A stretch of DNA of 64,000 nt from Romanomermis culicivorax. Lineage: Eukaryota; Nematoda; Enoplea; Mermithida; Mermithidae. The notes beneath the pieces are model-generated. The model did not search any database. It worked only from the letters and a program-made list of their open reading frames with translations, and had not been told where the DNA came from. Numbering within the stretch: the first letter of the stretch is position 1; each line of letters begins with the position of its first letter. A program made the position numbers and the translations under genes. Shown here one piece after another: positions 30,273-54,331 of the stretch. The stretch covers positions 124,001 to 188,000 of the forward strand of contig CAWUHX010000156.1 of the NCBI GenBank assembly GCA_963922205.1. The letters run 5' to 3'.

Positions 30273-31194
30273 ATAAAATCAGTACCTTCAATACTTTGTT
30301 TGTCGTGAATTTCTTTAAGGACTCGGCGTTTTTTAAAACGTCCTTGTAATCAGGGAATTAAACGATAAACAGGAATTATTCTCTACGGTCAAGCTCAATA
30401 AGTTCAAATCTTTCATCATCTGATAATTTTTTTCGAATAGATATGGCAAAAAATTTACAGAAAAAAAATAAAATCCCATGGATAAATCTAGCGATTAAGG
30501 ATGTATCGGACCTCTTGACCAGGTATGTTACCTGGTCCTATCCGATATTTTCTGACCTGACCCGAAAGAGGAAACAAGACTCTTGACTTTACCCATCATC
30601 CAAGATACCTCCGTGCCTAGAAGGTCACGGTCAAAAAATTAAGTTGATGATTTTCACTGTTAGAAGAAAAACAGATAAAATGTATTTCTACATGAGATTA
30701 ATTTGGTCATTATTACATGTATTTCGAAAATAAAATTTTCTCGGTAGCTTTCCAATGAAGATAGCGAATGATCCATATATTGGCATCGGCTGATAATTGA
30801 CTTTTTTAAATATCGGCCGATGGTTTTTTGGGCAAGCTGTGATCAACAATACCCTGTTTTCTACGGCAATTTTTGCATTAATCAGCTCTGCATGTGATTA
30901 CTTACTGGGCGTAAAAGTGTAAGTCTTGGTTCACTTTTGGTTAATTGTGATAAGAAAAACGTTGAACGTGCTTTTTCCCTTCAATGCATTATGACACAAT
31001 GGTTGATGAATAATTTTCAGCCTTCACCTTCTGAAAAAGTATGCTTAAAGAATGTTCAATTTCCATAATTCACGAAGAATTATTCAACAATATCATCTTG
31101 AAAGCAAAACTTTTCAAGATGAAATACCGTTTCAAATCAAGTGTTTTATAATTTCTATTGTATTCAAAAAGTTCTATAGTGAAACTTTCGAACC
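30273..31194. other. unassigned spacer left of the LTR element
   Basis: AT-rich, no gene recognised. A short imperfect TGACC(A/T)GGT/ACCTGGTC inverted motif lies near 30515-30560. Confidence 0.4.
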
Positions 31195-31749
31195 TGTTAG
31201 AACTACTCCCTTGGCTAAGCCTCGGTGATAGTGCAACAGTCCGGTTCCCCAGACCTACAAAAACAAAGATAAACTTAACCTCAAATGCAGGGCCTCACCA
31301 AAGAGCTCCGCAGTCTCCTAGCTGAGACAAGGAATCCCCTCAGGGATAGACTTACTTGAGTATAACCCTTAAAGGGTTTCCCAAAGCTTGCTGGGTGCAA
31401 GCTGGCGCCTGGGCCTTTGGCCCTCCACCTTCGACGATCGGAATTATCTAAATGAAAAACGAATATATTAAGCAATATTTCCGGCGAAATAATAAAAAGA
31501 ATGTGGGAACACCACAGTTTGTAATATGTAAAATAAAGTCGAAATGCTGGGAAAACTTTTATGGACGCCAGCAATATAACAAGAATAATATTAAAAAAAA
31601 CGTTTATAGTGAACAATGATTTTCACTATCATTTTTGGTCTTTCTTTGGCGCTCCACTTCTATGCAAATGTCTGCGCCGCTGGTCGTCCATTTCTTCGAT
31701 TTGCATGGCGATTTCCCCACGGGAATTGCCATCGACAGGGTGCCCAACA
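31195..31749 (-). repeat. LTR (3' LTR of the minus-strand element)
   Basis: 555 bp, direct repeat of 38912-39467 with roughly 14 differences by eye (about 97% identity). On the minus strand it begins TGTTGGGC and ends TTCTAACA, the usual TG...CA form. A purine run CGAGGGA lies directly upstream on the minus strand, as expected of a polypurine tract. Confidence 0.8.
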
Positions 31750-31757
31750 TCCCTCGG
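31750..31757 (-). promoter_or_regulatory. candidate polypurine tract
   Basis: Minus-strand CGAGGGA abuts TGTTGG of the LTR. The plus-strand element has GGGGAGGGA abutting TGTCAG at 48625, so both share GAGGGA|TGT. Confidence 0.5.
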
Positions 31758-32490
31758 GCGTCGAAACCGGCCTACGGGAGGTAGAAAAAAAACTCTCGGC
31801 CGGGTTACCCCGGCATTAAAAGAATTAATCAAAAAGAAAAAATCTACTACTCTGGCTGACTCCTGTTTTTACAGTTTGTCTCACTCGGACTCCCGTTTCA
31901 TAGTCTGTCCTAATCAGACTCCTGTGGTGGTCGTTGGACACAACGAATACCAAGGACTTCGCGGCAATGGCTGGCAAGTGACCCCCATTTTGACTTCGGC
32001 CTTGATGGAATAACCTCCCGTCCTAAGGAGTATGACGTTGACGTCCGCACCAAATTTGGTCGATTTCAGGTTCGGCTGCTCGGTCTGCATGCTGTGGCAA
32101 ATTGTTGGTCGTGGGTCTAACCGCATGCAAATCGTTTTCCCGCGTCTCTATTTTAAATCAAAATACGAGATTATATTTTATACGATACAACAAAGACGAC
32201 GCGGGAATGTACGAATATCACAAAATAAAAATGCGCTAAAAATTGAGCATAAAATTGTGGCCAAAAATTTGAAAAATGTTTTTTTACGGTTGCATTTTGC
32301 ACCGGTTTGTCAAAAAGAAAATTTTAGTTGGCCAGCAGCACCAAAATTTAAATAATATTTTTGGATTTTATAATTTTTTGATTTTTTTTGATTTTTGTGA
32401 TTTTATTAGAGTTTTTGGGTTTTATATTTTATGAAGTTAATAAAAATAAATGTGAAAAGATGATTTTTGGGCCAAAATTTGTGCGGCTGA
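31758..32490 (-). other. 3' untranslated region of the minus-strand LTR element
   Basis: Between the stop of the RG-rich protein and the LTR. The open frames on the opposite strand (31561-32013 and others) are not supported as genes. Confidence 0.5.
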
Positions 32491-34014
32491 TTACTGCTGC
32501 TGCCCGCCATCTCGGTAACCTCCTTGAGGTCTTCCTGGATAGTATCCCCTCTGGCCGGGTTGACCTCGGGTCTGACCTCCATCCTGGCCTTGATTCTGGC
32601 CTTGCTGGCTTCCACCGCGTCTACCAAGCGGCTGAAAGTTCGGATTATAAAACTGCGCATCCGGGTCTTGGCCTTGGTGTTGCCAGGTTCCTCGGCCTCT
32701 GTAGGGTCGCTGAGGGCGCCCTCTGAAGCCTCCTCTGGCTTGACCTCGGTCATACCCCGGTCTATCCCTGTATGGGGCCGGGTTTGAGAACATGTTGTCT
32801 CTCCCCTGTTGCCTCTGCGCTGGACCACTGCTAGTGGAGCTGCTGCGCTGTGGTTTTTGAGTCCGGAAAGTTGAATTAAGAGATTTTGATGATGTTGATT
32901 TGGACTGAGAAAGCGGACTTTTATAAGAAGTGCTAGCAGCTTCACTATACGACCTCTGGCTGGTTGCAGTAGATGATTGTTGTGTCGTCCGCGGCTGTTT
33001 CTTAGCTGGAGGGAGTCTAGGCACTTTAAATTTACTTGGGCTCTTGGCAGCCGTTCGCTGATATTTATTAGCTTGCGATCTGTCATCGCCTGGTGCCTTC
33101 CTCTTAACACCCATCTGGTTTAACCTCTGCAAGCCCATAAAGATGTACTGATTAAAGGCTGCAATGTAGGCCTCATCTACGCGGTTTCCCTGGGCCTCAA
33201 TGACCAGTTGTCTGTTCGCAAACGAACACGCCTGGGCATACCACCTACCAATTGCCATTGGCGTGATCAGCGCGAAATCCAACTGTAAGAATATCATTAA
33301 GGTCACATCCCTAATGGCCGTAAAGACGTCTGAAGCATCATAGTCCTGAAGCCATCTGGGAATAAGAACTAAAATAATCCATTCCCAAATTTCCTCGGGG
33401 ACGCGTTCTCTGTCAAACATAAATCCGCCCTGCATTTCGAACTGTTGGCAGTAATTTTCATGGATCTCGGCCATGGCATCATTGACCATCCTATAGATAA
33501 TGGGCCCTTCTTGGCGGTCAAAGGCGAAATAATTTGTGACCTCTGGATTTTCGAATGAGATCGGTCCAATTAGACGCCTTTGTTCCCATTGCCACTCCCA
33601 ATAATCAATCAGAGTTTCAGCTAATTGGCCAGGAGTGACAAACTGCTGTGGCTCCCTTTCGGGTCTTTTAACCACCACATTCAGTTTGACTTTCTTGATC
33701 AACTTTTCCTCCGATTCAAGATCGGGCTTTACCAAAATGCTTCCCGCAGGTTTACTACTCCTTGCGGTGTAGCTGGTGGGAACTGACTTAGATTTGCCAG
33801 ATACCATACTAACCTCTCCGCTGGTTTTCGATACCGTTCTCGTCTGAGTGTACGTTGCAGTGGACGCTGTTGTCCTATCCGATTTCGTCTGGCCTTTGGA
33901 GGTCTCCATTCGCGTTTGACTCTTGGTGGTCTCCGTCCTCGTTTGACTTTGAGTTGTCTCCGTTCTCGACTTTTGACTTGTCGAATATTCTGGGGTCGTA
34001 GTTTCCTCGGCCAT
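32491..34014 (-). CDS. nucleocapsid/Gag-like protein with RG-rich tail (507 aa)
   Basis: The ATG at 34014 follows the upstream TAG stop (34020-34018) by one codon and is in the same frame. Residues 1-110 are Ser/Thr/Lys/Arg-rich and low complexity with repeated T-Q-S-Q-T-R-x-E-T. Residues about 125-320 form a mostly helical domain rich in Trp, Tyr and Phe (from [10 protein letters not shown] to G-L-Q-R-L-N). From about 320 the chain is basic, then Ser-rich, and ends in an R-G-G/R-G-R-P/G-Q-rich tail typical of RNA-binding nucleocapsids. The helical domain aligns by eye with that of the plus-strand protein at 45872-47465: N-P-x-V near the start and a P-E-x-(I/L)-W segment of about 50 residues. 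Proposed role: packaging of element RNA. I cannot assign it to a known Gag or nucleoprotein family. No zinc knuckle. Confidence 0.7.
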
Positions 34015-34017
34015 ATC

Positions 34018-35112
34018 CTAAGATTCGTTTTCGGAACCGGTGGCGGCTGTTCCTTGTTGCTGCTGACCTTGAGCTGCAAGTCTGCGTGCTTTGGCCTTAC
34101 CTGGCCTTTTCCTACGCCTTACCTTTTCTCTGGCCAAGTGTTGGATAAATTTTTTGGACATACCTTCAGCTAACATTTGCTGAACTTTATCTGGGGAATA
34201 TACTCCAGGGATTTCTTCCTCAGTTATTTTTCCCCTCTTCATCAGCTCTGTCGCTGCAATGGCTGAATCTGAGCTGTCATCGGCTAAAGCCTGCTCCTTC
34301 AGCTTTCTTTGAAGTGCCCTCTGACGCAGGAATTCCTGCTGCATCAGCCTTCTCTGTTCCTGTATTTTGGCCTGTAGGGCCTCATGCTTCACTTGCTGAT
34401 CATGATCCTTAGGATCCTTAGCTTTAATAGGTATCTCCTGGGATGCCTCTTGCATCTTCTCCAGTCTGACGTCGATTCCCGACATTTTAGTCACTGCTTC
34501 ATCTATTTGAGTCTGGATCTTTTCCTCCTCAACAGCCTGTTTCTGAGTTTCGACCTCCATTGCGTCTTTATTCTCCGATGTCTGGCCCTCAGACTCCAGA
34601 ATCTCACCTTCTTCTTCTTCCTCTTCAACATCCTCCTCTGAACTAGACTCAGAGTCTGAATTTCGTATCTTCGGCAACAGTTGTTTTACTTTAGCTGGCA
34701 AAACAGCTGGTGCTGGAGGTACAATTTGCATGATGGTGACTACTTCTGGCTCAGGCTCGGCCGGCTGCTGTACCTGAGTAACCTGAGTCGGCTGTGCCAC
34801 CGCTGGTTGCATTGGCGGCGGCACCACGACTACAACTGCAGCTGCTTGCGTAGCATCAGTGTACAAAGCTGGTTGTTTTGCTTTGACCACCGGCGCTGGT
34901 GCTTGCCGCTGGGTTTTAACTTGTCCCAACCCTCCGGCTTGCGCCGTTTGGGAAGTAGAGGGACAGTTTACCGGTACTTTAGATATCAACTCACTGGCTG
35001 GGGTATAAGTTAGCTTATACCCAGGCATTTCTGAAGCAATTGTTCTCCCCCGGAAGCTTTTGCTGATGAATTCCAGTCTGAGTTCGAGCGGGTTTTGCGG
35101 TGCGTAAGTCAT
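34018..35112 (-). CDS. acidic coiled-coil protein of the LTR element (364 aa)
   Basis: The ATG is at 35112, six codons after the in-frame TAG that ends the previous open stretch, and the ORF stops with TAG at 34020-34018. Residues 1-150 are Pro/Ala/Gln/Val-rich. At about 155-185 there is an acidic run with [14 protein letters not shown]. Residues about 200-300 form a Gln/Glu/Lys/Arg-rich coiled coil, and the end is very basic ([15 protein letters not shown]). In the plus-strand relative the corresponding acidic plus coiled-coil segment is fused to the exonuclease ORF, so this is probably its detached C-terminal region. Phosphoprotein-like cofactor is one possible reading. Function unknown. 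Confidence 0.65.
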
Positions 35113-35127
35113 CGGGTAATCGGTCGG

Positions 35128-35880
35128 CTATGCGTCTTCCATCATCGGATACTGCAGTCCAGGTGTCAAAGTCTCGAAACCTACATAGTAAAAAGTTACA
35201 TAATAGTAAGGATTCACCTTGTAAGCTTCGTCCTTTAATAATGATTTGTCGTCGCTGATTTGCAATATTTCTTCGGCTTCTCTAAATCGTAGCGGGACGA
35301 ATCCAAACCGATTTTGCCAGGGGTATACCCCTTTTTTGGATGGAAAACGGGGTTCTGACAGCGGTAACGTCGCTGCTAATTCTAAATAGTAAGCCAGGCA
35401 GTCCCCTGACTTCCAGGACATGCGTTTTATCATCTCCTGGCCTTCTTTAGTATAACTATTTAAAAAGTTATAATTTAGCAGTGCGCTAGTTTCATAGTTG
35501 CACTCCGCTCTTGAATGAGGCCATGCCAAGTGATAGGCCAATGGCATGAACTTACAGATGACCTCTAACTCTGGAAAGTTTCGCTCATCCAACATGCCCG
35601 AAATTTTGGCCAAATTTGGCGTATAAAAATTCGTTTTATACGCCTGCCTATGACCTTCTATACCCACTGGGTAATGGTTATTAGCTGAAAACACTTCCTC
35701 TGGAATTTCATCGGGCATCCCGGCCTGTTGCCAGTATAGCTTAGCGTTTTCATAAAGCGTCAAGGAAATCTTACCGTCTAAATCATACATGTAACAGAGC
35801 TCTGAGGTCTGGGGGGTTTGGAGCACTTTTTTGGGGCCGGGGGTCAGTAATTCCCAAAATGTTGGGGGGAGGGGTCCCTG
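35128..35880 (-). CDS. C-terminal domain of the exonuclease-like protein (separated from its N-terminal part)
   Basis: The frame is open from an apparent TTTCTTTCAG acceptor (about 35879) to the TAG at 35130-35128. The segment [14 protein letters not shown] matches P-L-I-Y-F-L-W-P-H-S-A-Q-E in the plus-strand exonuclease ORF, and a later F-V-P-L-R-F-R-E...Y-Y-Y-V-T-F-Y-Y-V block matches C-V-L-P-I-R-W-I-P...Y-F-M-N-C-N-F-Y-N-V. It is therefore the same protein, split here by an insert or intron. No ATG opens the frame. I do not recognise the domain outside these two copies. Confidence 0.6.
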
Positions 35881-36200
35881 AAAGAAAAAAAATTAGATTT
35901 TTTCCATGAAAAATGTCCGAAAACGGTTTAAAAAGTAGTAATTTTTGTCTAAAAAATGATAAAATATGTACTTATAGCGCGAAGCGCCGAGAAAATTGAC
36001 GTTTTTGACCATTTTTTGTTCAAAAATTGACATTTTTCATAGAAAAAATGACATTTTTCAGTATTTTTCCGACTAAAACTATGGGGGTCCCTAGGGCTAC
36101 CATATGGCTAGCCATAGGATTGGAAAATCCTGGGGGGGGGGGGTGGTCGCCCAATAGCTAGCCATATGGTCGATGATTTATTGGGGGGTCCCATAGCACT
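35881..36200. repeat. insert or unspliced intron interrupting the exonuclease ORF
   Basis: Low-complexity sequence with G-runs (36131-36143), mirrored CCATATGGCTAGCCATA-like palindromes, and a GACATTTTTCA/GACGTTTTTGACC block related to 17940-18050. The right side (plus coordinates) lies just after the conserved W-D-L-D-H-T of the exonuclease protein. The nearest donor-like GTAATT is phase 1 while the acceptor is phase 0, so a simple intron does not fit. Confidence 0.5.
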
Positions 36201-37471
36201 TCCCCCCCAATTACATGTATGGTCTAAATCCCAATAGGTTCCACCTGACTTGAGATTTTCCAGGATATCCTTGGGGATATTAACCCAGTCTGGTATTTGA
36301 ACGTCCTGGATTTCGTCAGGATTGCTATCTTCAGTGTACCCATCATCCTTCATCGGTTTACTATCTCTCGGGAGCAATGGATAAAAACCACTTGGTAATT
36401 GAACTCCCTGAGGACGGACGGGGTTACACTCCGTAGGTGCGGTATAATAACCTGTGTTATTTCCCTGCATTTGTACTGCCCAACGGTTGTACATTTTGCA
36501 CTTCATCATATGGTACACCATATTAGGCTGTACCTGATCGGTTTCCAATACTGGGGAGCCTAGCCCCATTTCTCTATTTACGTTGCCCGGTATCATTAGA
36601 TATTGCTGATAAAAATGTAGGGCAACATTATTGATCTGTTTCAGATCAACCTTGTCATGATTGAAAATCTGCATTTGCATCAGCAGTTGATCGGCCATGC
36701 CATAGTGAATTGCGGCAAAGATAACCAATAAAGAATAATATGCGTCTAGAGCTGCGTACCTAAGCTCTTCTGGCAATATACCTCTTTTGGCAAACCGATC
36801 ACGGTCGGCCTTGAGTGAAAAATCATACTGATAGGGGCCCACGTCTATTAGATAAAATTCTGTGAACAGTCCCTTTAACCGAAAGGTTTCGGGACAAATA
36901 ACTGTTTGAAAACACTTTTTCTCCAGGTTAACCCCTACCATGGTTAAGGCGAAACGGTCTAAATCAAAGTAGTGACCTTTGGTCTTCCTAAGATATTCCC
37001 TTAAGGGGACAGTTTTGTCCCTGTCCTTATTGTCTTGCCCTGAACCACATACATTATAAATACTTACCAAGTCCTCCAGTACCAAATATCCGGCAAATAG
37101 CATGTCGGAATTGAGGAAGTCGTGGAGGCTTGTCCATTCCTTGAGCATCAAGGTCGTTGTATCGATAACGTACGTTTGACCGTTGGTTAGCGCGAAGCTT
37201 ACGTAATGGGCGAATTGTTTTCCCATCGGATTGTCGACCTCTCTCGTTTTGAACAAGGCGGCGACTTTATCCTGATGGACTTTTTCAACATCGAATCCAC
37301 CAACTGGTTGTCCTCTGAAGATTGAAACTTCTCGGATGAAGTGGAGTACTTGGCTGACTTTCCCAATGTCTACCATTCGAGGTTCCTTGGGATTAGCCGG
37401 CCAGTATCCAAAAGTGGCTTTGAACCACTGGTCCAGTTCGTGAATTCTCACGACCCTTTTGAAGTTGTAAT
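36108..37471 (-). CDS. DEDDy 3'-5' exonuclease-like (RNase D/EXD-type) protein of the LTR element, main exon
   Basis: Open from a TTTAG acceptor (exon starts at 37471 with AT-TAC-AAC) to 36108. Counting from the GTG at 37451: exo I is G-G-F-D-V-E (D54, E56), exo [10 protein letters not shown] (D127), exo III Y-A-A-L-D-A-Y (Y232, D236). That is the full DEDDy set of the RNase D/WRN/EXD2 superfamily, which removes nucleotides from RNA or DNA 3' ends with two metal ions. A helix before exo III matches the family's usual layout. After about residue 260 the sequence is element-specific. The last about 30 codons run into the insert and are probably not native. The plus-strand copy keeps the same residues despite strong divergence. 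Activity is predicted, not shown. Confidence 0.7.
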
Positions 37472-37668
37472 CTAAAGATTAAAGATACTATTAATTTCTG
37501 TGATTATTCCCCTTTTTTCAGCGCATTTCTCGAGTCTATACTACACCAGCACCACAACACCAAGCGGGTTAAGTTTCGCAGAAAATAAATTTAGTGCAGG
37601 GTTGTTAGGGGAGCCACTGATATACAAACATTGAGCTGGTAGGCAACTAGCACCTTACCAAATCTTAC

Positions 37669-37774
37669 TCTTGCTACCTCTATATGTTGGGGAGGGTAGA
37701 CCTGATTCGATTGTCCGCCACTTGATCGGACACCCATCTCTGACCAGCTGCTTGAGCGACCAACTACGCTCCAT
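37669..37774 (-). CDS. predicted first coding exon of the minus-strand exonuclease gene
   Basis: The ATG at 37774 opens 35 codons plus one base, ending at an A|GTAAGA donor (37669/37668). The leftover A joins AT at 37471 to give AAT (Asn), followed by Y-N-F-K-R-V-V-R. The plus-strand homologue does the same: A|GTAAGT, AAT, then Y-N-V-R-R-L-V-R. The shared phase, junction codon and following residues support the splice. Confidence 0.55.
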
Positions 37775-38911
37775 TTTTGGCGCTGTATTTACAATTTTTA
37801 TAGCGCTTGAAATTGATAATTTTTAATGATTTTGATATCGAAAAAGTGATATAATTTGATTTGATTTGAAAATAATTAATTTTTGATAAATTTTGATGAT
37901 AAAACTTTGAACGGGCTGAACCCAAGGTTCTAGGTTTCCCTTGAATCGTATAGCTCTCGGTGGTATCAGGTATATTTCCAAGTTTGGAAATTCCCTGCTT
38001 GGCTTCGAGCTTCCACTTCTCGGTACTCCTGTTTTTCATTCCCTCTAAGTTCTAACCTCGTCTGCCCTTTGGGGCGCCAAGCTGGTCTTCTAGTGACTTC
38101 TGGGCATTACCTGCGATTTCCAAGAATATTTGATAAAATAAGTTCGAAACTTACCGTCAATGAAGAAAAACCAGTTATCTTGTTGGTGTTGGGGCCTGCC
38201 GAATTCAACGTGGCGCTCTGTGTGCGACCACTCGCGCATCGGAGCTTGTTGGCAGTTCCACGCGCCCTTTCCCATTTCTTTTCTTTTCGAAATCTTTGTT
38301 TTGGAATAGTAAATTTATACATTTTCTAAAAATTTTTGAATGCTGAAAAAGTTTAATCTAGCAGTTCTGCTAATTTCCTTTTTATCGCAGTTTAGGGAAT
38401 GTTTTACTTCTTCCTTCTGATGGAAGTTTAGAATTCAGATAAGCGGGGCAGCTATAATTGATTTTAGAATAATGAAAAAAATTTGAAAATTTATATTTTT
38501 TGGAAAAATATCACAAATATTTTGGGTTGACACTTTGGTCTAAAATTCCGGAGAATTTTTCCCAAAGTCTGAGATAAATATGAAAAATTTACAAAATTAA
38601 TACTAATAATACTTAAAAGCCATAAATATTACAAAATAATACATATTTAATTTAAAAATAAGTACCTACACGCCTGAGATATATACATAATTTAAAAAAA
38701 TCAGCGCGAGATCGCGCATAGATTCGCCTTGGGTGAATTTCCAAATGATTTCATTTGGTTTGGCGCTCCAGTCCTAACTGTTTGCACCATATTGGAAAGT
38801 GACGATAACGCCAAGGTCAACAGTTCGATCCTGTTAGGGGCCATCACTTGTTGTGCAGGTCTCTTCTTAAGAGGCCTAAGAAAAGATGGAGACTTCTGGT
38901 CAGAACTGACC
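37775..38911 (-). other. leader between 5' LTR and first exon; no pol or gag
   Basis: About 1.1 kb with no reverse transcriptase, protease or integrase motif in any frame. A possible acceptor (AAATACAG) lies about 14 nt before the ATG at 37774. Near 38070, minus-strand TTGGCGCCCCAAAGGG looks like a primer-binding site in form but lies far from the LTR edge. Confidence 0.45.
38749..38843 (+). pseudogene. tRNA-Ile-like 3' half, or primer-binding-site region of the LTR element
   Basis: 38799-38843 resembles the anticodon-stem, variable, T-arm and acceptor 3' strand of a eukaryotic tRNA-Ile: GATAACGCCAAGGTC, then AACAGTTCGATCCTGTT (5-bp T stem), then AGGGGCCA. Upstream CATTTGGTTTGGCGC is D-arm-like, but a proper 5' acceptor strand is missing, so this is not a functional tRNA. 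Read on the minus strand it starts TGGCCCCTAACAGG, the form of a primer-binding site, 68 nt inside the LTR edge at 38912. Confidence 0.4.
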
Positions 38912-39467
38912 TGTTAGAACTACTCCCTTGGCTAAGCCTCGGTGATAGTGCAACAGTCCGGTTCCCCAGACCTACAAAAACAAAGATAAACTTAACCTCA
39001 AATGCAGGGCCTCACCAAAGAGCTCCGCAGTCTCCTAGCTGAGACAAGGAATCCCCTCAGGGATAGACTTACTTGAGTATAACCCTTAAAGGGTTTCCCA
39101 AAGCTTGCTGGGTGCAAGCTGGCGCCTTGGCCTTTGGCCTTCCACCTTCTACGATCAGAATTATCTAAATGAAAAATGAATATATTAAGCAATATTTCCG
39201 GCGAAATACTAAAAAGAATGTGGGAACACCACAGTTTGTAATATGTAAAATAAAGTCGAAATGCTGGCAAAACTTTTATGGACGCCAGCAATATAACAAG
39301 AATAATATTAAAAAAAAACGTTTATAGTGAACAATGATTTTCACTATCATTTTTGGTCTTTCTTTGGTGCTCCACTTCTATGCAAATGTCTGCGCCACTG
39401 GTCGTCCATTTCTTCGATTTGCATGGCGATTTCCCCACACGAATTGCCATCAACAGGGTGCCCAACA
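38912..39467 (-). repeat. LTR (5' LTR of the minus-strand element)
   Basis: 556 bp partner of 31195-31749 in the same orientation. I found no matching target-site duplication outside the pair (left flank ...GAACC, right flank TCTTC...), so one side may have been rearranged. Confidence 0.8.
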
Positions 39468-40597
39468 TCTTCAGTTTTCCGAACGTGGTCTTCATTAAAC
39501 TAGATTTCTGCCATTAAACAGTTTTCAAATTGCATGCAAACCATGAGGTAAATTTTTTTCGTAAGGCTTCTTTTTTTAGACAAAAATTTATAAATAAAGC
39601 TTCTCATCATTATTCTTCGAAATCTGGTTGATTGGCACAAATTATGAAAGTTTTTTGTGAAACTTGACGCTGTAGCTTCACCTTCAGTCTCATAATAATA
39701 GAATGGTCAGAAAAAACAATCACATATTACTTTAATGATTTTGGGACCAAAATAGATGGACGGAATTATGCGTAGCAGACGCCTTTCAACTAAGATGTCT
39801 CATGAAGACCATATCAACTTAAGCTTTCGAGATGCATTCCTTTACGCATTAATTTTTCACTGATTCTCTTGGGTCTTTTCGTTCTGCTGAACCAAATCAT
39901 CTAATTTCCTGACAAGCTTTTGTAAAATTGTTCGTCTCTATCGGCCACAAGTTTCACCCCTTTTCAGTTATCTCTGATCTCCCGAATCGACTTCTGCTTT
40001 GACTAGAAAAATAATTTTTCAAAACTTTTCCTCACGCTTTTTCTTTGAATTCGAATACACATATCTTTGAATTCGAATACACATATCTTAATGCTCGACT
40101 CAAAGACGCAGAATTCCATTCTCATCAGGAACTAAGTGCAACGAATTTTCTTCTTAGCTTCCATATCAACGAACCATGCGGAAAAAAATCGACTGGCAAA
40201 AAGTTGTGAAACCATCATGCAAGTTCTTTCTGCACAATTAACGTCCGAACATTTATGTTTTTCATCAAAAAAAAATTATTCTTGACTCGGTAAACAACGA
40301 TAAAATTACTTTAATGGTGTCAAACTCAGTTTGGGAAAATCACCGTACTACCTTTTTCGCGAAGTACATTTTAGAGCGCGATAAAACTCGGCTTTTGAAA
40401 CTTGAGTTTTAAGTCGGTTTGATAAAACTCTTCGAGAAACTCATCCATAGAGCCATGCCAACGTTTTTTCCAGCACACCGTACACCCTTATTTAAAATCT
40501 TTTCGATAACACGCACTCAACAACTAAGGGATACCCCCTGAAATCTTCGATGCAGAGAATTATTGTAGATTTTTTTGGTTAAAACATAATTCAAGCG
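39468..40597. other. unassigned spacer; small tandem duplication at about 40043-40089
   Basis: No gene. CTTTGAATTCGAATACACAT occurs twice in tandem near 40043-40089. The Ty3-like pol begins abruptly at the right edge. Confidence 0.45.
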
Positions 40598-41455
40598 TTG
40601 TGTCTCGATACCTCGACTGTCCCGTTACTGTCACCTAAATCCATCAAGCAGCTGCAAAAGTTCTTGGGGTTAGTGCAGTGGTCTAAACGATTTATCCATA
40701 ATTTAGCCTTCATCGCCCAGCCTTTATTTAAAGCCCTCGTAAAGAAAAATAGGAAGGAAAAGTTTGAACTTTCAGAGGAACAGTTAGCAGCTTTTGAAAG
40801 TGTAAAGAATGCCCTAATGACGGCACCCTTCCTTCGATATCCAGTATTCGACGGATCGGCGAGATTTGTAATTCAAACAGATGCCTCAGGAACAGCGATA
40901 GGGGCAATATTGTATCAGGAAATGGAAAATGATCGATGGACAATAGCCTACTCGAGTAGAGTTTTAAATGACGCCGAAACAAGATATTCAACAACGGAGA
41001 GAGAATGTTTAGCCGTAGTTTACGGGTTCAAGCAGTATAGGCACTACGTGATGGGATTTAGGGTCACAATCAGGACAGATCACAAACCACTTACGTGGCT
41101 TTCAGCAGAAAAACAACAAAATCAAAGGCTGTTAAAATGGGCTTTATATCTTGGTCAATTTAATTATACATTCGAATATGTAGCGGGACGAGAAAACGCC
41201 TTCACAGATTTCTTATCACGGTCCGAAGAAAAGGAAAAGATTCGAAACAAGAGACAAGAAACAAAGGAAGAAATCGAAGAGGGGAAGTTGAGTACGGAAC
41301 CTGAATGCATGGCAGTAACTCGAGCCATGACGAGACAAATGCTTGAACCCGAGACTCAAGAAACATTCATTGATCCCCCACCGCCGACGCAACAAGAAAT
41401 AGATCAAACACCGAAGGAAGCGAAAAAAGATTCCAATTGTTTTCTCTGGAATTAG
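40598..41455 (+). pseudogene. Ty3-like pol, 5'-truncated: RT thumb and RNase H
   Basis: Begins inside the reverse transcriptase, at the K-Q-L-Q-K-F-L-G-L-V segment that follows the palm domain, so the catalytic Y-x-D-D region is absent. RNase H follows with its acidic residues in place: Q-T-D-A-S-G, T-E-R-E-C-L-A-V, R-T-D-H-K-P-L-T-W and a final F-T-D-F-L-S-R. The segment then changes frame into the integrase part (overlap at 41437-41455). Upstream RT, protease and Gag are missing. It lies in the same orientation as, and upstream of, the exonuclease module at 43086. Confidence 0.85.
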
Positions 41456-42687
41456 TTAAGAAGCAACAACGATTGGATCCGAAGTTGGTGGACATTTTTC
41501 GGAACGTTGGCGAAAATAGTTCGAAAAAATACTTTAATAGTTTTCACTTAGAAAACGGAGTATTATACCACGAAAATGCCCATGGGAAAAGCCAACTAGT
41601 GATCCCATCAAGACTTAGACACCTCATTTTACATCAATATCACGGTGATACATTAATGGGGCACCAGGGAATAGACAGAATTATCGCCGCAATAGGAAAC
41701 AAGTTCTGGTGGCCAAATATGGAAGACGACATTATTAAGTGGATAAAATCCTGTGTTGTATGCCAATTATGTTGCCCCATAGCAAACCCGATCCAACCAC
41801 TTAACCCAATACCCGTCTCGTACCCTTGGGAAATAGTAGCAACCGATGTGGTCAGTATTTCGCCTCTTCGAGAAAAAAGACCATACGTTATTGTATTTAT
41901 GGACTATTTCACGAAATGGGTCGAGGCAAAATGCATTCCAGACCAAAAAGCCGACACAATAGTGAAAGCATTCATGGAGAAGGTCATTTATACTCACGGA
42001 ACACCGAAACACTTGCTGAGTGACCAAGGCTCAGCGTATATGTCCGAATTAATGCGCAACGTGTGCGATCTCCTAAAAATAAAGAAAATCAATACGACAC
42101 CATACCACCCGCAATGCAATGGTATGGTGGAAAGATTCAATAGAACGTTAATAGAGCAAATTAGGAGAGTCGCAATAACCGACCTGGACGATTGGCCCCA
42201 CTATCTGGAGCAGATTTTATTTGCGTATCGGATTACGCCTCACAAAACAACGAAAAATTCCCCCCATAGTCTATTGTATGGACATGAGGCAAGGTTCCAG
42301 ATAGATAATGAGATTGCAAGGCCAATAATTATTCAAAACAATTACGACACGTACAAATACATGTTAATGGAGCACCTCCTTAACACGTACAAAATTATCA
42401 ACGAAAATCATAAAAAATCGGCGGCCAAAAGAAAACTACAGTATGATAAGAAGGCTCGCGAAAAGACGTTCCAAACGGGAGAACTTGTTCTCTACCAGAA
42501 AGGAATTATCAAAGGGAAGGCCGACACAACAAACGACGGTCCCTACGAAGTAATTGAGACACAGAATTTAGAGAAAAATGTCATAAAAATACGTCGCGCT
42601 GGGAAACCAGATTCGCGCATACAAATAGTTTCTATAAATCGCGTAATGCCTTTTGTTACGCGAACACCCGATTTTTACTGTAACTAA
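41437..42687 (+). CDS. Ty3-like integrase part of pol
   Basis: Contains a zinc-binding H-Q-Y-H...C-V-V-C module (HHCC), then the catalytic core with A-T-D-V-V, L-S-D-Q-G-S-A-Y and G-M-V-E-R-F-N-R. The second Asp and the Glu are separated by exactly 35 residues (DD35E). Near the C-terminus is the G-P-Y-E-V motif of the GPY/F module, and no chromodomain. The frame differs from that of RNase H upstream, so one indel (or a frameshift) separates them. The integrase itself looks intact and may be relatively young. No independent start codon at its beginning is convincing. Confidence 0.85.
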   Translation: MFSLELVKKQQRLDPKLVDIFRNVGENSSKKYFNSFHLENGVLYHENAHGKSQLVIPSRLRHLILHQYHGDTLMGHQGIDRIIAAIGNKFWWPNMEDDIIKWIKSCVVCQLCCPIANPIQPLNPIPVSYPWEIVATDVVSISPLREKRPYVIVFMDYFTKWVEAKCIPDQKADTIVKAFMEKVIYTHGTPKHLLSDQGSAYMSELMRNVCDLLKIKKINTTPYHPQCNGMVERFNRTLIEQIRRVAITDLDDWPHYLEQILFAYRITPHKTTKNSPHSLLYGHEARFQIDNEIARPIIIQNNYDTYKYMLMEHLLNTYKIINENHKKSAAKRKLQYDKKAREKTFQTGELVLYQKGIIKGKADTTNDGPYEVIETQNLEKNVIKIRRAGKPDSRIQIVSINRVMPFVTRTPDFYCN

Positions 42688-43085
42688 TAATTCATTTTTA
42701 TCATTCTCGTTGTGCGTTCTGTTCGAATTAATTTTATTCGTACCTTTTAATGCCCTATGTATTGTATTTTTTCTAACCTTTTCCCCTTTCTTCTTTTTCA
42801 ATTTTTAATTGTACTGACTTATTTTTGGCAACTTTATGGCAAGTTTTAGGCATTTACCAAAAAATTACGACGCCGGAAAATTTTAATGGGCCAAATAATA
42901 TTTTTTCACGCGCTTAGTGTGAGAAAATTAAAGGTTTATAAGTCCCGAGAAAATCATCCCCGAATTATAAAGTCCGTGAATTCGAAGAATTATGGAGTTA
43001 TTTTTTAGATTTAATTTACAGAGACTTAGTATATTAATAATTTTCGTCGATTGGAGATTTCAAGAAATTCGAATCCGAACGTGAT
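42688..43085 (+). other. pol to exonuclease-gene spacer with candidate subgenomic splice acceptor
   Basis: 400 nt AT-rich. TTTAATTTACAG ends at about 43021, 65 nt before the ATG at 43086, the kind of acceptor used to make a spliced subgenomic mRNA for a third ORF. This is inference. Confidence 0.35.
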
Positions 43086-43170
43086 ATGGCAACGTCCAGT
43101 ATCGTCGAAATTGATAGCACCTTCGGGCAGCCTCAAGATCGGCAAGATAATACAAATTTTCAAATCAGTA
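43086..43170 (+). CDS. predicted first coding exon of the plus-strand exonuclease gene
   Basis: The ATG at 43086 gives 28 codons plus one base (M-A-T-S-S-I-V-E-I-D-S...), ending at a strong A|GTAAGT donor (43170/43171). The phase and joined codon (AAT) agree with the acceptor TTTTAAG at 43380. The main exon has no ATG near its start, so a spliced leader exon is needed. Confidence 0.6.
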
Positions 43171-43380
43171 GTAAGTTTGGGAAAGGTAGAATATGTCATG
43201 AAATTTTTCGGAATGGGACTCTAAGTTGACCGGCCGGCAATTTATATGCCGAGGATTTTGGGTGTTTGAGAGCCTGATCAACTCCCCTTCGTCCAAATTT
43301 ATTCTTGTGCATTTGAGTCGTTTTTGTTTCGAAATCATTATCAAAAAGTTGTAGTTAGAAAAGTGTATGAAAATTTTAAG

Positions 43381-45872
43381 ATTACAATGTTCGAAGATTG
43401 GTACGTTCAACGGATATTTTTAATTATTTCACATCGTTGTTCGGTGTGCCTCATGCGGCCATCGAAGAACCATTATTTCTGGAGCCCGAGAATTTGAAAG
43501 CATTTATTAAGGCGATAAACCTTTCGAAATTTAGAGGACGTATAGTCATAGCGTTAGACACCGAAAGTGGGAGAAAGCCGAAAACTCCAGGATCAAAGCC
43601 AAGCGACGCATTGCGACTTCTAACGATTTCAACGATGTGCGGGAAGAACTTTATAATTGATTTAAAGTTTTGGGACAAAGAACACTTTCACAAAGTATAC
43701 GGAACGATTTTTCGCCGCGAAAACATCATCGTCGGTTTCCACATACGCGAGGATATCACGCTAGTTCTGACTAAATTCGGGTATTTAGATCAGGAAAAGG
43801 AACTAGTTCGAAAAAGGCGTGACAACATAGACTACATTTTATCGTGCTGCGTCTATGATTTGGAAATCGTACTGGCGGAGATGAAGGACAAGTCGAAAGC
43901 AAGAATAATCGGAATCAGCCCTGAAGGCCTTAACCTGAAAGCCCTTATGACAGAAGTTTTGTTTTTATGGGCCGACGCTTTCAAGATTTCCTGGGGACAG
44001 TTGAGTTCCCTAGAATTTCGGCAACTCATGGAGGCAGACAAATTGAATATAGAAGTTTTGCGATACGCGACGCTCGACGCGCGCGGATCCCTTCTATGTT
44101 TCTTGGCTCTACTTCGCTACGGATTCGCGACAGACATTCAAAATTGTTTCCAGTTGTACCCACACGATACGATGGAACCGGAATTGGTCGCTGATTTAGC
44201 ACGAAGATTTAGGGACACGTTCGAAAGTAAATACACGGATCCACAATGGAAAGGCGCTTACGGAGTGGAAGAAATAACTGGCAATACTAACGCATTATAT
44301 TTCATGATGCGTGGAGAAGCCATAGCGACCTATAAATTATCAGAGGAAATGACGCCAGGGACTTTTCAGTGTCCTCCGCATTTCTCTAATAGCGACATCG
44401 AACCGCAGCCAGTGCCCAATGGTTGGTTTCCATGGGTAGAAAGAAAGGTAAAAGCGTCAAGAAAGAGAAAGGATACGGACGATTCCGAGGAAGGACCAAC
44501 TAATGATTGGGATTTAGAAGATATTCTGGCGGCACGGCAATTTGGACGGCCAATTGAACCCCGAGAAATAGAAATGAAACACGGAAAATGGCCAAAAGAA
44601 GTGATCCACTTTACCAATATTATACGAGAACAAGTGTCGTTGCTTGAGGACCATTTTCACTCGAAAATTAACCGATCGATCGTCCCGATAGTCAAAGATT
44701 TGTACAAGAAAAACGTAAATCCACTAATTTACTTCTTGTGGCCTCATTCGGCGCAAGAGTGGAGAGCTTGGGTTCCGGGATTTACGTCGGGAATGTGGTC
44801 CTCCGTGTGGAGAAATGAACAAGAACGAATCGAATTCATGAAATGGATGGGCCAGGATCTCTTGAACAACAAGACGACCGATCAAATGGAACAGATGATG
44901 GAACGGTATCCAAAGATACGTACGCAGAAATCGATTCAAAACATTTTTTGCGTACTACCTATAAGATGGATACCGCGTTCCTGCAAAGAACCCATCAAAG
45001 AAATAGAGACAAATTTGCGCGACAATTCTATTTATTTTATGAACTGTAACTTTTATAATGTGTTCCATTTTTTGAGTATCCATGCCGCCAGTCGAAATCT
45101 TATTTATTGGAATGTTTCCGCGTCCATATTCGAGGCTAAGGACCTATGGGCCCCTAGCACCTCTGCAACTTTTAAATCTGTAACTAAGTGGGAGGACTCA
45201 GATCTGATTCCGCAAGTAGAAGTTGTGGTCCCGGCTAGCCAGGGTCCTACAGAACAAACTTCGAAGGAGCAGACTGTAAATGTACCACCTAAAGTAGATA
45301 ATTTGAATGTTTCAGATAACGGAATGGGGCAAGATAAGCCCGTGGTCGTACTTATCGCGGATCCCCCTATCACCAGTACACCCGCGGATGGGAGTAAAGG
45401 TGCCGAAGAGGAGGAAAAATTAATGGAGATAGTTGAATCCGAAAATCAGACACAACCCGATTTGGAAAAATTAACCGATCAGATAAAGGAAATGAAAGAG
45501 AAAATAGAAGTTTTGGAAAAGGAAAAGTACGGGAAGGCCGCGATCGAACTAGCGAAACAGTTAGAAGATACCAATCCCGAGGAAGAAGGGACGAGCGAAG
45601 AACCGTACGTAGAAGTAATATCCGAAATCGGTAGCGATGACGAAGAAACCGGAGATAACGTTTTGCCCACTCCGCCGGTTTATGCAAAGGCCGGTGGACA
45701 AAATGTAGAAAACATTACCAATCCGGTGAAATTCACAAAAGCAATGCAGAAGAAGAGACAAGATAAAGAGAAACGAATAGTTCGCGAAGAGAATAAAGCC
45801 GAGCTGGACAAAGTAAAGAGCGGAAAGTTCCAACAGCCCGCCGAAAATCCAAATGATAAGGTTAAATACTGA
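43381..45872 (+). CDS. DEDDy 3'-5' exonuclease-like fusion protein, main exon (about 830 codons)
   Basis: Starts after the acceptor at 43380 and stops with TGA at 45870-45872. Counting from the TTG at 43398: exo I A-L-D-T-E-S (D54, E56), exo II V-G-F-H-I-R-E-D-I (D119), a G-L-N-L-K-A-L helix near 177, exo III Y-A-T-L-D-A-R (Y223, D227). This is a complete DEDDy catalytic set as in RNase D, WRN and EXD2. Residues about 370-600 match the minus-strand C-terminal domain (L-I-Y-F-L-W-P-H-S). Residues about 600-824 are acidic with a Lys/Glu coiled coil (I-K-E-M-K-E-K-I-E-V-L-E-K-E-K) and a basic end, equivalent to the separate acidic ORF in the minus element. Likely a retroelement-borne nuclease. 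Substrate unknown. Confidence 0.75.
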
Positions 45873-47465
45873 TGAGGTCTCGGGGGGCGTGGACAAGTCA
45901 TCAACAAAGCCTTGAAAGAAGGAAAATATATCGTGGATTTCCAGTATGGAAGAGTATCTCTATCAAATCCATGTGTCCAGAAGTATCTCGCGCACATGGA
46001 TCCCGCTCTGGATGAGGAGGTAGCTCTAATGACGACAGATTTAATAAACCGGGTATACGACGAAGCCGGGATCGAAATCGAAACAATACGATATTATGAA
46101 TTACAGTTTCATGTTCTGCAAGCAAACTTGCCCGAAAAGTTGTGGAGCATTTTCGAACTTCAGCTAGCCAAATGGAGTACAACGCGATCTCCAGAGAAAG
46201 CATATGAAGCGGCTGTATGGGCCTGCGCTTGTCTATTTATGAAATTGTCTCGATTGGGCAGAATTCCACAAAATTTCGCAGGATTCCACTACCAGGCCCA
46301 CGCGTATATTACGATGAAATTGGGGCGGGAATTTAACGCTGGACAAGGAGGAGCAGGTAGCAATTTTCATGTGTTATACGCCTCTTGCCAGTCGAAAGCA
46401 TCGGCGTTAGCATATACGATTGCTAAGGCCGTGCTTCAAGACAAAAAAGACCCCGAACCGAAGTATGCGAATATACAGGTATGGAAGAAGGAAAGGGACA
46501 ACACCGACCCACGGATACGATTTTGGGAAGTAATTGATCGAAGGAAAGCCCATGATATATTGGAAGTCGAAAAAACTTTGAAGAAAAGAGTTGGATACCG
46601 AGTCAAGCATGCCCACACTAGGCCTGCGACCAGTAAGGTATCCAAACGATGGGTTAGAAAAGATAGGGATACGCAAAGAAGGGAGAAATCAGAAACGCCG
46701 GAAAAAGATAGAAAGAGAAAGCAGGAGAGTCGACACAGAGACGAAAGTCGCCACGAGAAATCGATGTCGCGAGAAAAGAAGCGAAAAGAGGCGGAAGAGG
46801 AGAGTTGGCGCAAAGAAATCAATGATTACGAAATGGCTTACGAAAGGAAGGAAAAGGAAAAGAGAGAAGCGAAAGAGCGACAGGATAACCGAGAATCTCG
46901 AAGTAGAAAAAGGGCATCGGCATATTACCAACACGACGATAGAGTGGACGTGGCCTACTCCAGTCGAAAGACTTCACTGGATAGGTCTAGGGCCGCGGAA
47001 ACAACGCAACAGGGAGTGTCGATGGCCGATGCGAACGCGATGGTACAGGCCCACCAGCAGCAATTACCATATTTACCGCCGAATTATCCGGGGTTGCCGA
47101 TGGTGGGTGTTGACTGTATAAATCGCCCTCTTTTTTCAGGTCAATTATTTTCAAATACAATGGTGCCGCCGCCGGCACAGTATCAAGTGCCGCAGTTTCC
47201 GATCATGCAATTCCAGCCCGGGCAACCGCAATTTTGCAACCAGTTCTTAGTTCCGCCGGGCGTGCAGATGCCTCCGCCTACGATGATTCCCCCGGTGCGT
47301 AATGTGCGAACCGAAGAAAGAATGGATATTCCGGGGACGTCTACGGGTACGCAACCGCCCCAAAGACCGCCGTCCACAGAGAACCCCGATTATATTTCCC
47401 CGTTGAAACGAGATATTGGTATTGGTCAACCGGGACGGGACCATAGGGGTCATAGAAGAAAGTAA
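45872..47465 (+). CDS. nucleocapsid/Gag-like protein with basic, Pro-rich tail (about 517 aa)
   Basis: The ATG at 45872-45874 overlaps the upstream stop as TGATG, but the main frame is one base off. The frames meet only if one G of the G6 run at 45882-45887 is skipped. Within the main frame there is no ATG before the conserved domain (first at K-Y-L-A-H-M). Residues about 20-180 are helical and align with the minus-strand protein (N-P-C-V-Q-K-Y, then L-P-E-K-L-W-S-I-F). The next about 150 residues are extremely basic and charged (R-K-R-K-Q-E-S-R-H-R-D-E-S-R), and the last 130 are Pro/Gln/Gly-rich, ending G-H-R-R-K. Proposed nucleic-acid-packaging role by analogy. Family unknown. Confidence 0.65.
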
Positions 47466-48612
47466 ATTTTTTATGTTCCAGATGACCCCGCTCTCCATGA
47501 GGTCATTATAAAGACAATTATTTCGTTCTGTAAAATTTTTCGATGTTTCAAAAGTTACCTATTTTTTCCGTTTTGAGCATCAGTATTACAAAATCGAAAC
47601 CGGTTGTGCCACCTTTATTATGCCTTAAAGTTGCCTCTTGTACTAATCTCAATTTGTTTCATTTATTTTTTCGTTTGTGTTTTGTTCGAATCTGCACGGA
47701 GATATATCGTATTTCTTTTTTTTGCGAATTTGTAAATTATCAAGCAATTTTTGTATTTTCTTAAATCTCGGGTATTTTGTTCCTTTCCGACAAGGTCACC
47801 AACTGACATCACCCAAGGGTAGCAGGCTTTGCGCTGCCATTTTCATATTTTTCTATCTTTTTTCCAAAACACATTTTCATTCTAAAATTTTTTCGTGGCA
47901 CAGACCGTGTTATGGGTTTAAGTTTACCTTTTAATAAGGCAGACTCACTTTAGCAATAAATACCATAAATATTTTGGTTCAAAATCTAGACAGCCAAAGG
48001 GCCAGAGGATTTGGTTTTCGGGCATCCTTTCTCCCTGGGGGCAGATAATACCAAAGGCGTTGGGGGGGCCAGTGTCCGGCCAAGGGGCCAGAGGAGCAAC
48101 AGCGGCGGAAATTCGAAAGTCTTGCGGGCTCTCCACGATCAACAACCCCCCCTCCGGAGAGGACGGAGACGAATGCCACAATCGATGATGGAGGAGCCGC
48201 CGATACGAAATACATCGACGGCAGTGGGGAGCAGCCCACAACCTAACTCGGGCACCGCGGGGGTTGCCGCCGGTCAAACGTTTTTATTTTTATCTTGGTC
48301 AAATTCGGCCCGAGTGCCGCGAACGCTATTCGTTCGAACATTTTTATTCTTTTATTCGGGACAACGGGCCCACGGGGCATTTTATTAGTGAACTTTGTAG
48401 CGTCGGGGGTAGCATCTGGCGCAATTGGCCCAAAGTTGTAAAGATACCGTGTGATACGGACGTTTTTATTTTCATTATTTACGATTGCGTCAACGGCGCG
48501 TAGCGTCGTTTTTGTTGAACATTTGGAGTCGCCGATCGTCGGCGTCGAGGGTCTGGGGCCCTTGGGGGATCTCCTGACTTTTCCCTTCGCTGGCGGGAAA
48601 AGTCTTGCCTTT
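47466..48612 (+). other. 3' region of the plus-strand element
   Basis: About 1.15 kb. The first part is AT-rich; 48040-48600 is GC-rich. The 125-codon frame at 48011-48388 has no recognisable domain. It leads into a polypurine tract. Confidence 0.45.
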
Positions 48613-48624
48613 GGGGGGGAGGGA
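48613..48624 (+). promoter_or_regulatory. polypurine tract
   Basis: GGGGGGGAGGGA directly before TGTCAG. The last six bases and the following TGT equal those at the 3' LTR of the minus-strand element. Confidence 0.6.
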
Positions 48625-49384
48625 TGTCAGAGGGTCAATTCCTCTGACCTTTGGTCCTCTAATTACATCATTTCATTTTCTAAAGTTTCTTTATCGCTAA
48701 AGTGTTTTCATTTATTCTCAGGTAAACAAACCGATAAAACGGTTTGTGTCACTCATATTTTTGGTCAAAAATAAATAAATGGTTGGCGCAAATGTTTTGC
48801 ATATCACTTGCAAGTCGACGTTAGACGCGCTGCAGTGTTTTTTATTCATTCTTATTATTATTATTGTGAGTAATATTTTCGTCGGGAGAATCGCCTCTCC
48901 CTCGTTTGATATTAGCGTCTGCACCGTAACATTCGGGCGCCTTGTTATTTTGGCGGTGGTGACAGAGGAAAGGATCACCGCTTCGTTTATTTGTGTTTTG
49001 AGATTCGCGTCGCGGACGAATTTGAGTAGTGACGCAGCCTGAGACGTTTGCGACGTTCCATCTTGAGGAGAGGAACCAGTGAGTGGTTGTCTGAGGTAGC
49101 TCACTTATTTTTGGTAGAGTTTCAGCTTAGGCCGTGGCCTGAGATATCCTATTGGCCCTGTGGCTCGTTGCTCAGGGACAAAGAAGGATCAGCCGACTAG
49201 GGAGGTTGAAGGCGTTAGCGTTTGTATTTTTGGGCACTCTGCACTTTTGTTTCGTACTCACATCCATCGTTGTATTCTACTACCTGTTGTGTTTTGCTCA
49301 CCAATAAACGTTCTCGTGCATCAAGTCTCAACTCACTGCAGTAGGACTGTATTTAGTACCGGGTTAGCGTCAGGGGCTGTACCA
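48625..49384 (+). repeat. probable LTR, right end uncertain
   Basis: Starts TGTCAGAGG directly after the polypurine tract and carries a perfect 8-bp hairpin (GTCAGAGG/CCTCTGAC, 48626-48648). AATAAA occurs at about 49303 within CCAATAAACG. The end is guessed at a CA near 49384, because TTGGATCTCCCAAG follows and could be a primer-binding site. I found no second copy upstream of 43 kb. Confidence 0.4.
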
Positions 49385-49523
49385 GATTGGATCTCCCAAG
49401 AACCGCAGGTAGGCAGCCGAGGGTATACGAGCACTTAATACGACAGGATGAAGCCAAAGTCCCTTGTGGGTCCGCATACCCCTCTTTCATTAGGGAACCA
49501 ATCCTTGCAGTTCAGCGAGATCC

Positions 49524-50174
49524 TTGCAGTTCAGTGAGATCCCTGGAAAAAAAATTTCCCAACTAAATGAAAAATTCGATATTTTAATGGCCCATGTGCT
49601 TGAAAATAAAGGCCAAAATGATAGGCAAAAATGCGCGGATCATTTGTCTATCACTTGTTTCAAATGTGGGAAAAAAGGGCACTATGCCAACGAATGCAAG
49701 GGCGATCCCGCCTCTTCTTCACCCCCTAAATGCTCTATTTGTAACAAGGAAGGGCACCTAGCTGCCAACTGCTTCGGGAAATGTCGTCACTGTAAAAATA
49801 TGGGGCATAGGCACAAAGATTGTCCTAACAGGAAATGCATGGTATGCATGCAAAGTGGGCATTTTGAAAGTTATTGCCCTCAAAAGCAGGGTCAACAAAA
49901 TAATGTTAGTGGGTCTAATTTTGATCTTTTGGATTCTGATGACCCCTGTATGATGACCTGCACAAATATTTGTACTGTTGCAGCACATTGTCAAATTTCG
50001 ATTCGAATGGGCTCAAAGTGGCCCAGGAATTTTCGTCAGTGCCACTGGCCCCTGAACCCAATGAAACGAGCGACAATGGGAATGAGCAAGTCTGGGCACT
50101 GGATGATGGAGCTACAGCATCCGTGTTGCCCAAAATCGAAAGGATTGACCCACATGGGCCTACACTGCCCTTGA
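49524..50174 (+). pseudogene. Gag nucleocapsid fragment with four CCHC zinc knuckles
   Basis: The first 140 codons are open and contain four knuckles in a row: C-F-K-C-G-K-K-G-H-Y-A-N-E-C, C-S-I-C-N-K-E-G-H-L-A-A-N-C, C-R-H-C-K-N-M-G-H-R-H-K-D-C and C-M-V-C-M-Q-S-G-H-F-E-S-Y-C. These bind single-stranded nucleic acid in retroelement Gag proteins. The matrix/capsid part of Gag is missing; just upstream, CCTTGCAGTTCAG(C/T)GAGATCC occurs twice in tandem. The segment after about codon 140 is out of its natural frame. Confidence 0.75.
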
Positions 50175-50746
50175 TAAATGAAGGCTCAGCTTGTAACCAA
50201 GCAAGTAAGCCCATTAAAAATAAAAAGTCCACAGACGAGTTTTCCACAAACGCTAAATTGAATTTTTTGGCGTTACAAATGCGGAATTTCAAAATTCAAA
50301 ATTTTCAAAATATCGGGAACGAACTTTGCAGGGAGGCCCAGTGGCATATGGATCCAGCTTGGCAGTCCCTCCAGTTGGATGCCACTTCCTTCCTCCAGCA
50401 GGGCGATATTATCGCTCAGTTTACAGGTGATGCCCTAACTATTTGGCCGTGCAGGCAAGTTAATGCCTCTCCAATTTACAAAAATCATAAAATTAATGGT
50501 ACATGCTACGAGTACATGCCTGCCATCGTTGAAGAACAACCAGGTGGTGAGGATCTCCTAGCCCTGAGCCAAAGGGTCGATTGCACCAAGCAATACACCC
50601 TTACAAAACTAACCAAACCCAGCAAACTGAAGAGGGCCCCATACATGTCAGTAAGGTGCCCCTTGAAATTATATGGCATGGTAACTTTTCTGTCTTTGAT
50701 TTCAAGGCTCCGGCCATTTTTCATAATCAGCTGGCCGCAGTCTTGA
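49970..50746 (+). pseudogene. protease-like motif fused to Env ectodomain (pol deleted)
   Basis: In the -1 frame relative to the zinc knuckles, W-A-L-D-D-G-A-T-A-S-V-L resembles a retropepsin active site (D-S/T-G-A). About 60 residues later, with no RT or integrase between, comes a glycoprotein-like stretch: G-D-I-I-A-Q-F-T-G-D-A-L-T-I-W-P-C, then N-G-T-C-Y-E-Y-M-P-A and a V-D-C. That Cys pattern reminds me of class III-type glycoproteins seen in chuviruses and some BEL elements, a tentative assignment. Several kb of pol must have been deleted. The frame is lost at the end and continues at 50581-51003 in another frame. Confidence 0.5.
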
Positions 50747-54274: not shown

Positions 54275-54331
54275 ATATTTGTAAATTTCACTCTCTGAAT
54301 TTTTATGACGTCATAACATAGGCCCAGTAAC

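Follow-up and report, generated by a model that had tools for sequence, protein, structure and literature searches.

Open reading frames (ORFs) for DEDDy exonucleases are carried by the Juno and Vesta long terminal repeat (LTR) elements of bdelloid rotifers and by Terminons (PMC5408684). The authors of that study, as far as its account of these elements goes, weigh a role in 3′-end processing or in silencing, with the enzyme activity yet to be demonstrated. A passage of PMC6338049 refers to a DnaQ-like 3′-5′ exonuclease as a well-known accessory domain in the polyproteins of LTR elements, and in Cer1 of C. elegans the CERV protein is described as being required for exporting the unspliced genomic RNA of the element (PMC10309623). 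Here we analyzed a 64,000-nucleotide stretch of Romanomermis culicivorax DNA (GCA_963922205.1, contig CAWUHX010000156.1, positions 124,001-188,000 of the forward strand; hereafter the window), which holds two exonuclease-bearing modules, one on each strand. We interpret both modules as the third gene (ORF3) of Ty3/gypsy-type LTR retroelements, encoding an inferred polyprotein, and we assign this interpretation as a whole a probability of about 0.72. The two families to which the modules belong are named by their strand in the window, minus family and plus family.

Homologous modules in two multicopy families

When the two modules of the window were compared by BLASTP, the exonuclease parts matched with E = 8e-15 (83/400 residues identical), the following parts, which share a W-P-H-S core (WPHS domain), with E = 2e-5 and 26% identity, and the last parts with E = 3e-4 and 20% identity. 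The three matches lie in the same order on both strands, and the proposal of the initial annotation that the two sets are homologous and collinear was thereby borne out.

Copies were searched for in the genome of the same species (359 Mb, 595 contigs). Window positions 37000-37700 gave 645 first-look candidates for the minus family, and positions 43500-44400 gave 251 for the plus family. In each family 40 candidates were scored, the window copy included, and all scored at least 93% and at least 88%, respectively. Twelve minus-family stretches taken from the 40 scored are referred to below as the 12 other copies. Three elements, assembled from separate pieces, were read over their whole length: C7 (13,953 bp) and C239 (14,639 bp) of the minus family and C2 (13,625 bp) of the plus family. 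Their LTR pairs were 97.6%, 96.9% and 98.0% identical, respectively, and all three were flanked by 4-bp target duplications (AATC, AGGA and ATAA in the same order). TG...CA ends were present in the LTRs of all three, one C7 LTR being slightly altered at its ends. The layout in each was LTR-gag-reverse transcriptase (RT)-RNase H (RH)-integrase (IN)-ORF3-LTR, with all genes on one strand. A Pfam scan of pol reported protease, RT, RH and IN in one of the two sequences scanned (L111) and RT, RH and IN, with protease unreported, in the other (L112); among the whole elements, protease was reported in C239 only. On the basis of domain order, LTRs and target duplications, both families are Ty3/gypsy-type LTR retroelements. 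The idea that the introns described below were kept because the genes are antisense to the element was rejected, since pol and ORF3 lie on the same strand in the three whole elements.

Before the copies were examined, a shared intron place and long frames were also consistent with two host genes that lie by chance beside retroelements. The many copies on many contigs in both families, together with the LTRs and target duplications around the three whole elements, led us to reject this explanation, and we regard its probability as negligible. The suggestion that the modules represent a multicopy, LTR-flanked accessory gene of a retroelement held instead, with copies of both families found downstream of integrase and between LTRs. 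Ordinary Gag, which the initial annotation had named among the findings that would count against its view, is encoded separately in the whole elements, upstream of pol and ORF3.

For the window copies themselves, the described association with LTRs was correct in part. The LTRs are real, the minus-copy pair being 97.7% identical (matched stretch 38909-39469) and the plus copy having a 3′ LTR, but the minus pair encloses no complete element. A primer-binding-site-like stretch and the 5′ LTR directly adjoin the region that precedes ORF3, and gag and pol are therefore missing from this copy, whereas integrase sequence lies directly upstream of ORF3 in 10 of the 12 other copies; the two exceptions, L100 and L103, resemble each other. 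The plus copy is truncated within RNase H at its start and ends with its 3′ LTR at 49445. No flanking target duplications were seen at either window copy. At 38805-38848, which holds the primer-site-like stretch and adjoins the 5′ LTR, C7 and C239 have other sequence at the same place; members of the minus family may use different primers or may have recombined there.

Between the two families, identity was 41-47% in pol, 27% in gag (over 103 residues) and 21% in ORF3. The simplest reading of these figures would be that ORF3 was already in the common ancestor of the two families and is fast-changing.

Predicted intron, reading frame and selection

An intron common to both families is predicted in ORF3. 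Exon 1 ends at a GTAAG donor in both window copies, and exon 2 opens in both families with an identical phase-1 junction and the residues YNxxRxVR. The predicted intron ends were seen in the window minus copy, in the 12 other minus copies and in the window plus copy, and the short first exon noted earlier before each set stands as a sequence-predicted exon in both. That the intron position is shared at 21% ORF3 identity supports common descent of the gene. Divergence within the intron (0.039) was lower than in its flanks, but the copies had been chosen as best matches to a stretch containing the intron, and we make no claim of constraint on it.

The initial annotation treated the minus set as separate ORFs or genes. 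Comparison with other copies indicates that these are probably not four genes. The stop that separates the WPHS domain from the coiled region in the window was found in none of the 12 other copies, and the stop between the coiled region and the end domain in one (L104). In the minus family, the frame was open across the exonuclease/WPHS join in 8/12 copies, across the WPHS/coil join in 7/12, across the coil/end-domain join in 9/12 and across all three in 4/12. The double stop of the window plus copy at its coil/end-domain join was absent from all three other copies read there (C2, L095 and L096). Since these stops are nearly private to the window, and since a 437-bp insertion also interrupts the minus copy, the separate ORFs of the window are accounted for by lesions of its own copies. 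In-frame stop readthrough as a feature of the gene was rejected on the same counts. The insertion was also considered as an intron and rejected, because the blastn pieces of all 12 other copies go from 35784 directly to 36222-36241. It has short inverted ends (CATACATGTAA-like), lies inside ORF3 next to a 9-bp repeated word and looks like a MITE (miniature inverted-repeat transposable element).

At least one stop was present within the six segments counted in every one of the 12 other minus copies, and the lesions were own to each copy. Because the lesions differ among copies, a single ancestral frame that decayed copy by copy would be the simplest reading. In the plus family, the open frame of C2 covers 1,077 codons and takes in all four parts, stretching from the exonuclease as far as a stop where the tail begins. 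An ORF3 open from end to end was seen neither in the 12 minus copies nor in C2; this weighs against our interpretation, and we lowered our confidence in it slightly for this reason. ORF3 is nevertheless very likely, as we infer, one polyprotein behind one intron, composed of a DEDDy exonuclease, the WPHS domain, an acidic/coiled region and a helical domain with a basic tail.

The ratio of nonsynonymous to synonymous substitution rates (dN/dS) was calculated over 13 rows, one of them the window copy and the rest the 12 other minus copies, with exon 1 and positions 33736-34014 left out. It was 0.24 in the exonuclease, 0.17 in its linker, 0.22 in the WPHS domain, 0.32 in the coiled region, 0.23 in the helical domain (33055-33735) and 0.35 in the tail (32494-33054). 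When the same six segments were read one or two bases out of frame as a control, the ratio was 0.73-1.39. After removal of the window and L103, the in-frame range was 0.17-0.37. These results show purifying selection on the six tested segments of ORF3, and the contrast between 0.17-0.35 and 0.73-1.39 indicates that these parts were maintained during the spread of the minus family.

Domains and candidate roles of ORF3

The first part of ORF3 is recognisable as a putative DEDDy exonuclease from its conserved residues and from a low-confidence structure model. The pattern DxE...D...YxxxD is conserved in both families. Among 20 rows from 13 minus-family copies, the first three acidic residues (D, E and D) were present in 18 rows, the other two being uncovered there, the Y was present in all 20, and the final D in 18, with E instead in two rows that both come from C239. 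Among nine rows from eight plus-family copies, D, E, D, Y and D were present in all covered rows. A first structure model of 577 residues had a pLDDT (predicted local distance difference test) of 32 and was unusable. The 28 best PDB matches of the low-confidence model were all with DEDD-type domains, none of them at E ≤ 0.001; they include EXD2, trypanosome RNase D, Egalitarian entries and Exd1, with 12-21% identity in the aligned part. Pfam PF01612 was not listed as a match at E ≤ 10, profile comparison with RNase D was not significant, the PDB sequence search gave no exonuclease match, three scans of viral contigs revealed no relatives and phage records gave a single match at E = 2.

Relatives of the WPHS domain and of the acidic/coiled region were not found in Pfam, and none of the end domain in Pfam, PHROGs, NCBIfam or PDB sequences. 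The end domain also had no detectable likeness to the Gag of its own element (hhalign E = 0.66, two sequences per side). According to the charge profile, one family has an RG-rich tail and the other a tail rich in K, R and E, and this basic end may bind RNA. The label nucleocapsid-like, which the initial annotation gave to this part, describes the look of the sequence and has no family match behind it; the further suggestion of a second nucleocapsid stays a guess.

ORF3 occupies the position of Env, downstream of integrase, and is probably spliced, and it could in principle be a diverged envelope-type gene with a superficial likeness to exonucleases. In a hydropathy scan, one minus-family segment reached 1.89, for which we raised our estimate of this explanation slightly. 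The plus-family maxima were 1.29 and 1.16, with no clear membrane segment, and the conserved DxE...D...YxxxD pattern and the DEDD-type domains in all 28 best structural matches also speak against an envelope origin. We consider it very improbable.

The ORF3 product would very likely be translated from a spliced subgenomic mRNA, like retroviral Env and Cer1 CERV. It may well not be a membrane protein; its basic end would then bind the RNA of the element, and the exonuclease would trim or remove RNA 3′ ends there. This could serve to process or export the genomic RNA or to shield the element from silencing by small RNAs, and the data do not separate the two. We give even odds to ORF3 being an RNA-directed, non-membrane factor of the particle or of a nuclear RNA complex of the element, with export/processing and anti-silencing about equal.

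Two more specific roles are each rather unlikely in our estimation. ORF3 may be a silencing suppressor, its exonuclease breaking down small RNAs, or the precursors of these, that the basic domain holds. The fusion of an exonuclease to a basic domain under selection is in line with this, and PMC5408684 discusses DEDD proteins with links to silencing, namely mut-7, EXD1 and Maelstrom; the same discussion, however, expects that self-limiting elements would not persist if the enzyme aided silencing, and suggests an auxiliary role in replication. Alternatively, ORF3 may act like CERV as a nuclear export factor for unspliced genomic RNA, with the exonuclease serving as an RNA-binding or end-trimming module. 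Its position and predicted spliced layout match those given for CERV in PMC10309623, and an intron retained in genomic RNA raises the identical export problem, but the word exonuclease is absent from the main text of that paper and the likeness drawn here is one of layout. We give little credence to a bolder scenario, in which an old Ty3/gypsy lineage swapped Env for a polyprotein, encoded with an intron, that combines exonuclease and RNA binding, accompanies the element RNA and either destroys the RNAs that direct silencing or trims them, as a counterpart of viral exonuclease-nucleoproteins.

Window features and comparison with known systems

Table 1. Features of the two ORF3-bearing copies in the window
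Feature	Position	Strand	Basis or remark
Minus copy, whole extent	31192-39467	-	holds ORF3 between LTRs
3′ LTR of minus copy (element sense minus)	31192..31749	-	outer end ~60 bp shorter than in other copies
Helical domain + RG-rich basic tail (nucleocapsid-like)	32491..34014	-	BLASTP; dN/dS
Acidic/coiled region	34018..35112	-	dN/dS; charge profile
WPHS domain	35128..35784	-	BLASTP to plus family; dN/dS
Insertion, 437 bp	35785..36221	.	in 0/12 other copies; adjoins repeated GTCTAAATC (9-bp word)
Exon 2, first part: putative DEDDy exonuclease domain (core 36651-37400) + linker	36222..37471	-	
Predicted phase-1 intron	37472..37668	-	ends align in 12/12 other copies
Predicted exon 1, ~35 aa	37669..37774	-	ATG in 11/12 other copies
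Primer-binding-site-like stretch, just inside 5′ LTR	38821..38843	-	tRNA likeness by eye
5′ LTR of minus copy	38849..39467	-	619 bp, TGTTG...CAACA
pol remnant of plus copy: RNase H + integrase	40598..42687	+	40633-42684 96.5% identical to C2
Predicted exon 1	43086..43170	+	
Predicted phase-1 intron	43171..43380	+	position matches minus-family intron
Putative DEDDy exonuclease domain + linker	43381..44390	+	
WPHS domain, approximate bounds	44391..45110	+	BLASTP to minus family
Acidic/coiled region, approximate bounds	45111..45869	+	charge profile
Helical domain + K/R-rich tail	45876..47465	+	BLASTP; charge profile
Polypurine-tract-like stretch	48608..48624	+	by eye
3′ LTR of plus copy	48625..49445	+	94.5% match to 5′ LTR of C2

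Beside the 3′ LTR of the plus copy, the plus strand at 49494-50746 holds an ORF in which Pfam reported zf-CCHC, with zinc knuckles in three places; the overlapping frame that comes after it had no Pfam match at E ≤ 0.01. This stretch is perhaps a leftover of another retroelement. Elsewhere in the window, two minus-strand ORFs at 55884-57938 match Pfam Helicase_C and, by eye, look like exons from a host gene for a DEAD-box helicase, possibly a DDX49-like one. The minus-strand ORF at 21655-22113 resembles, by eye, a mariner-type transposase remnant; Pfam gave no match for it at E ≤ 0.01. At 52909-55264 and 61733-62579 lie repeated blocks as well as arrays whose period is 15/31 bp (TCAAAACAGCGA-like), in both orientations. 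An Rfam scan of the window gave no match at E ≤ 1.

The initial annotation knew of no LTR-element family with an RNase D-like ORF plus a second nucleocapsid; as regards the RNase D-like ORF, this is contradicted by the DEDDy ORFs of bdelloid elements as reported in PMC5408684 and by the wording of PMC6338049. The four-part ORF3 itself was not found in the open-licence literature, with Repbase and most subscription journals outside the search. Capture of DEDDy domains by LTR elements is therefore already known, and what seems to be new is a four-part, intron-bearing ORF3 in two well-diverged families. The function of third genes in LTR elements is often unknown. This one was kept under selection and is present in two well-diverged families; behind an intron of its own, it links an enzyme that can be recognised with a basic domain, so that specific functional tests become possible.

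Outside LTR elements, EXD2, trypanosome RNase D, Egalitarian and Exd1 have the DEDD exonuclease-type fold that the matched half of the low-confidence model resembles, but are cellular proteins. Dada DNA transposons, as presented in PMC3706591, are mobile elements with a captured DEDDy domain, as here, although theirs lies inside a DDE transposase and not in a retroelement. Cer1 likewise belongs to the Ty3/gypsy type, and its third gene, which is not Env, lies between pol and the 3′ LTR and is expressed from a spliced mRNA; CERV differs in having exons in common with gag, and the main text of PMC10309623 does not present it as an exonuclease. The two genes are likened here by layout. The closest likeness by enzyme is to Juno and Vesta, LTR retrotransposons in which a DEDDy exonuclease stands where env would be (PMC5408684). 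According to the descriptions in that paper, by which we compared them, its DEDDy-like ORFs are without coiled-coil (CC) and transmembrane (TM) domains, and Juno, Vesta and TelKA have a dUTPase, whereas Pfam reported none at E ≤ 0.1 in the two pol sequences scanned here. In the R. culicivorax elements, in contrast, the putative DEDDy domain opens what appears to be a polyprotein of four parts, which has a basic end and a predicted intron in its gene and is present in two families, and these elements may extend DEDDy capture beyond bdelloid rotifers.
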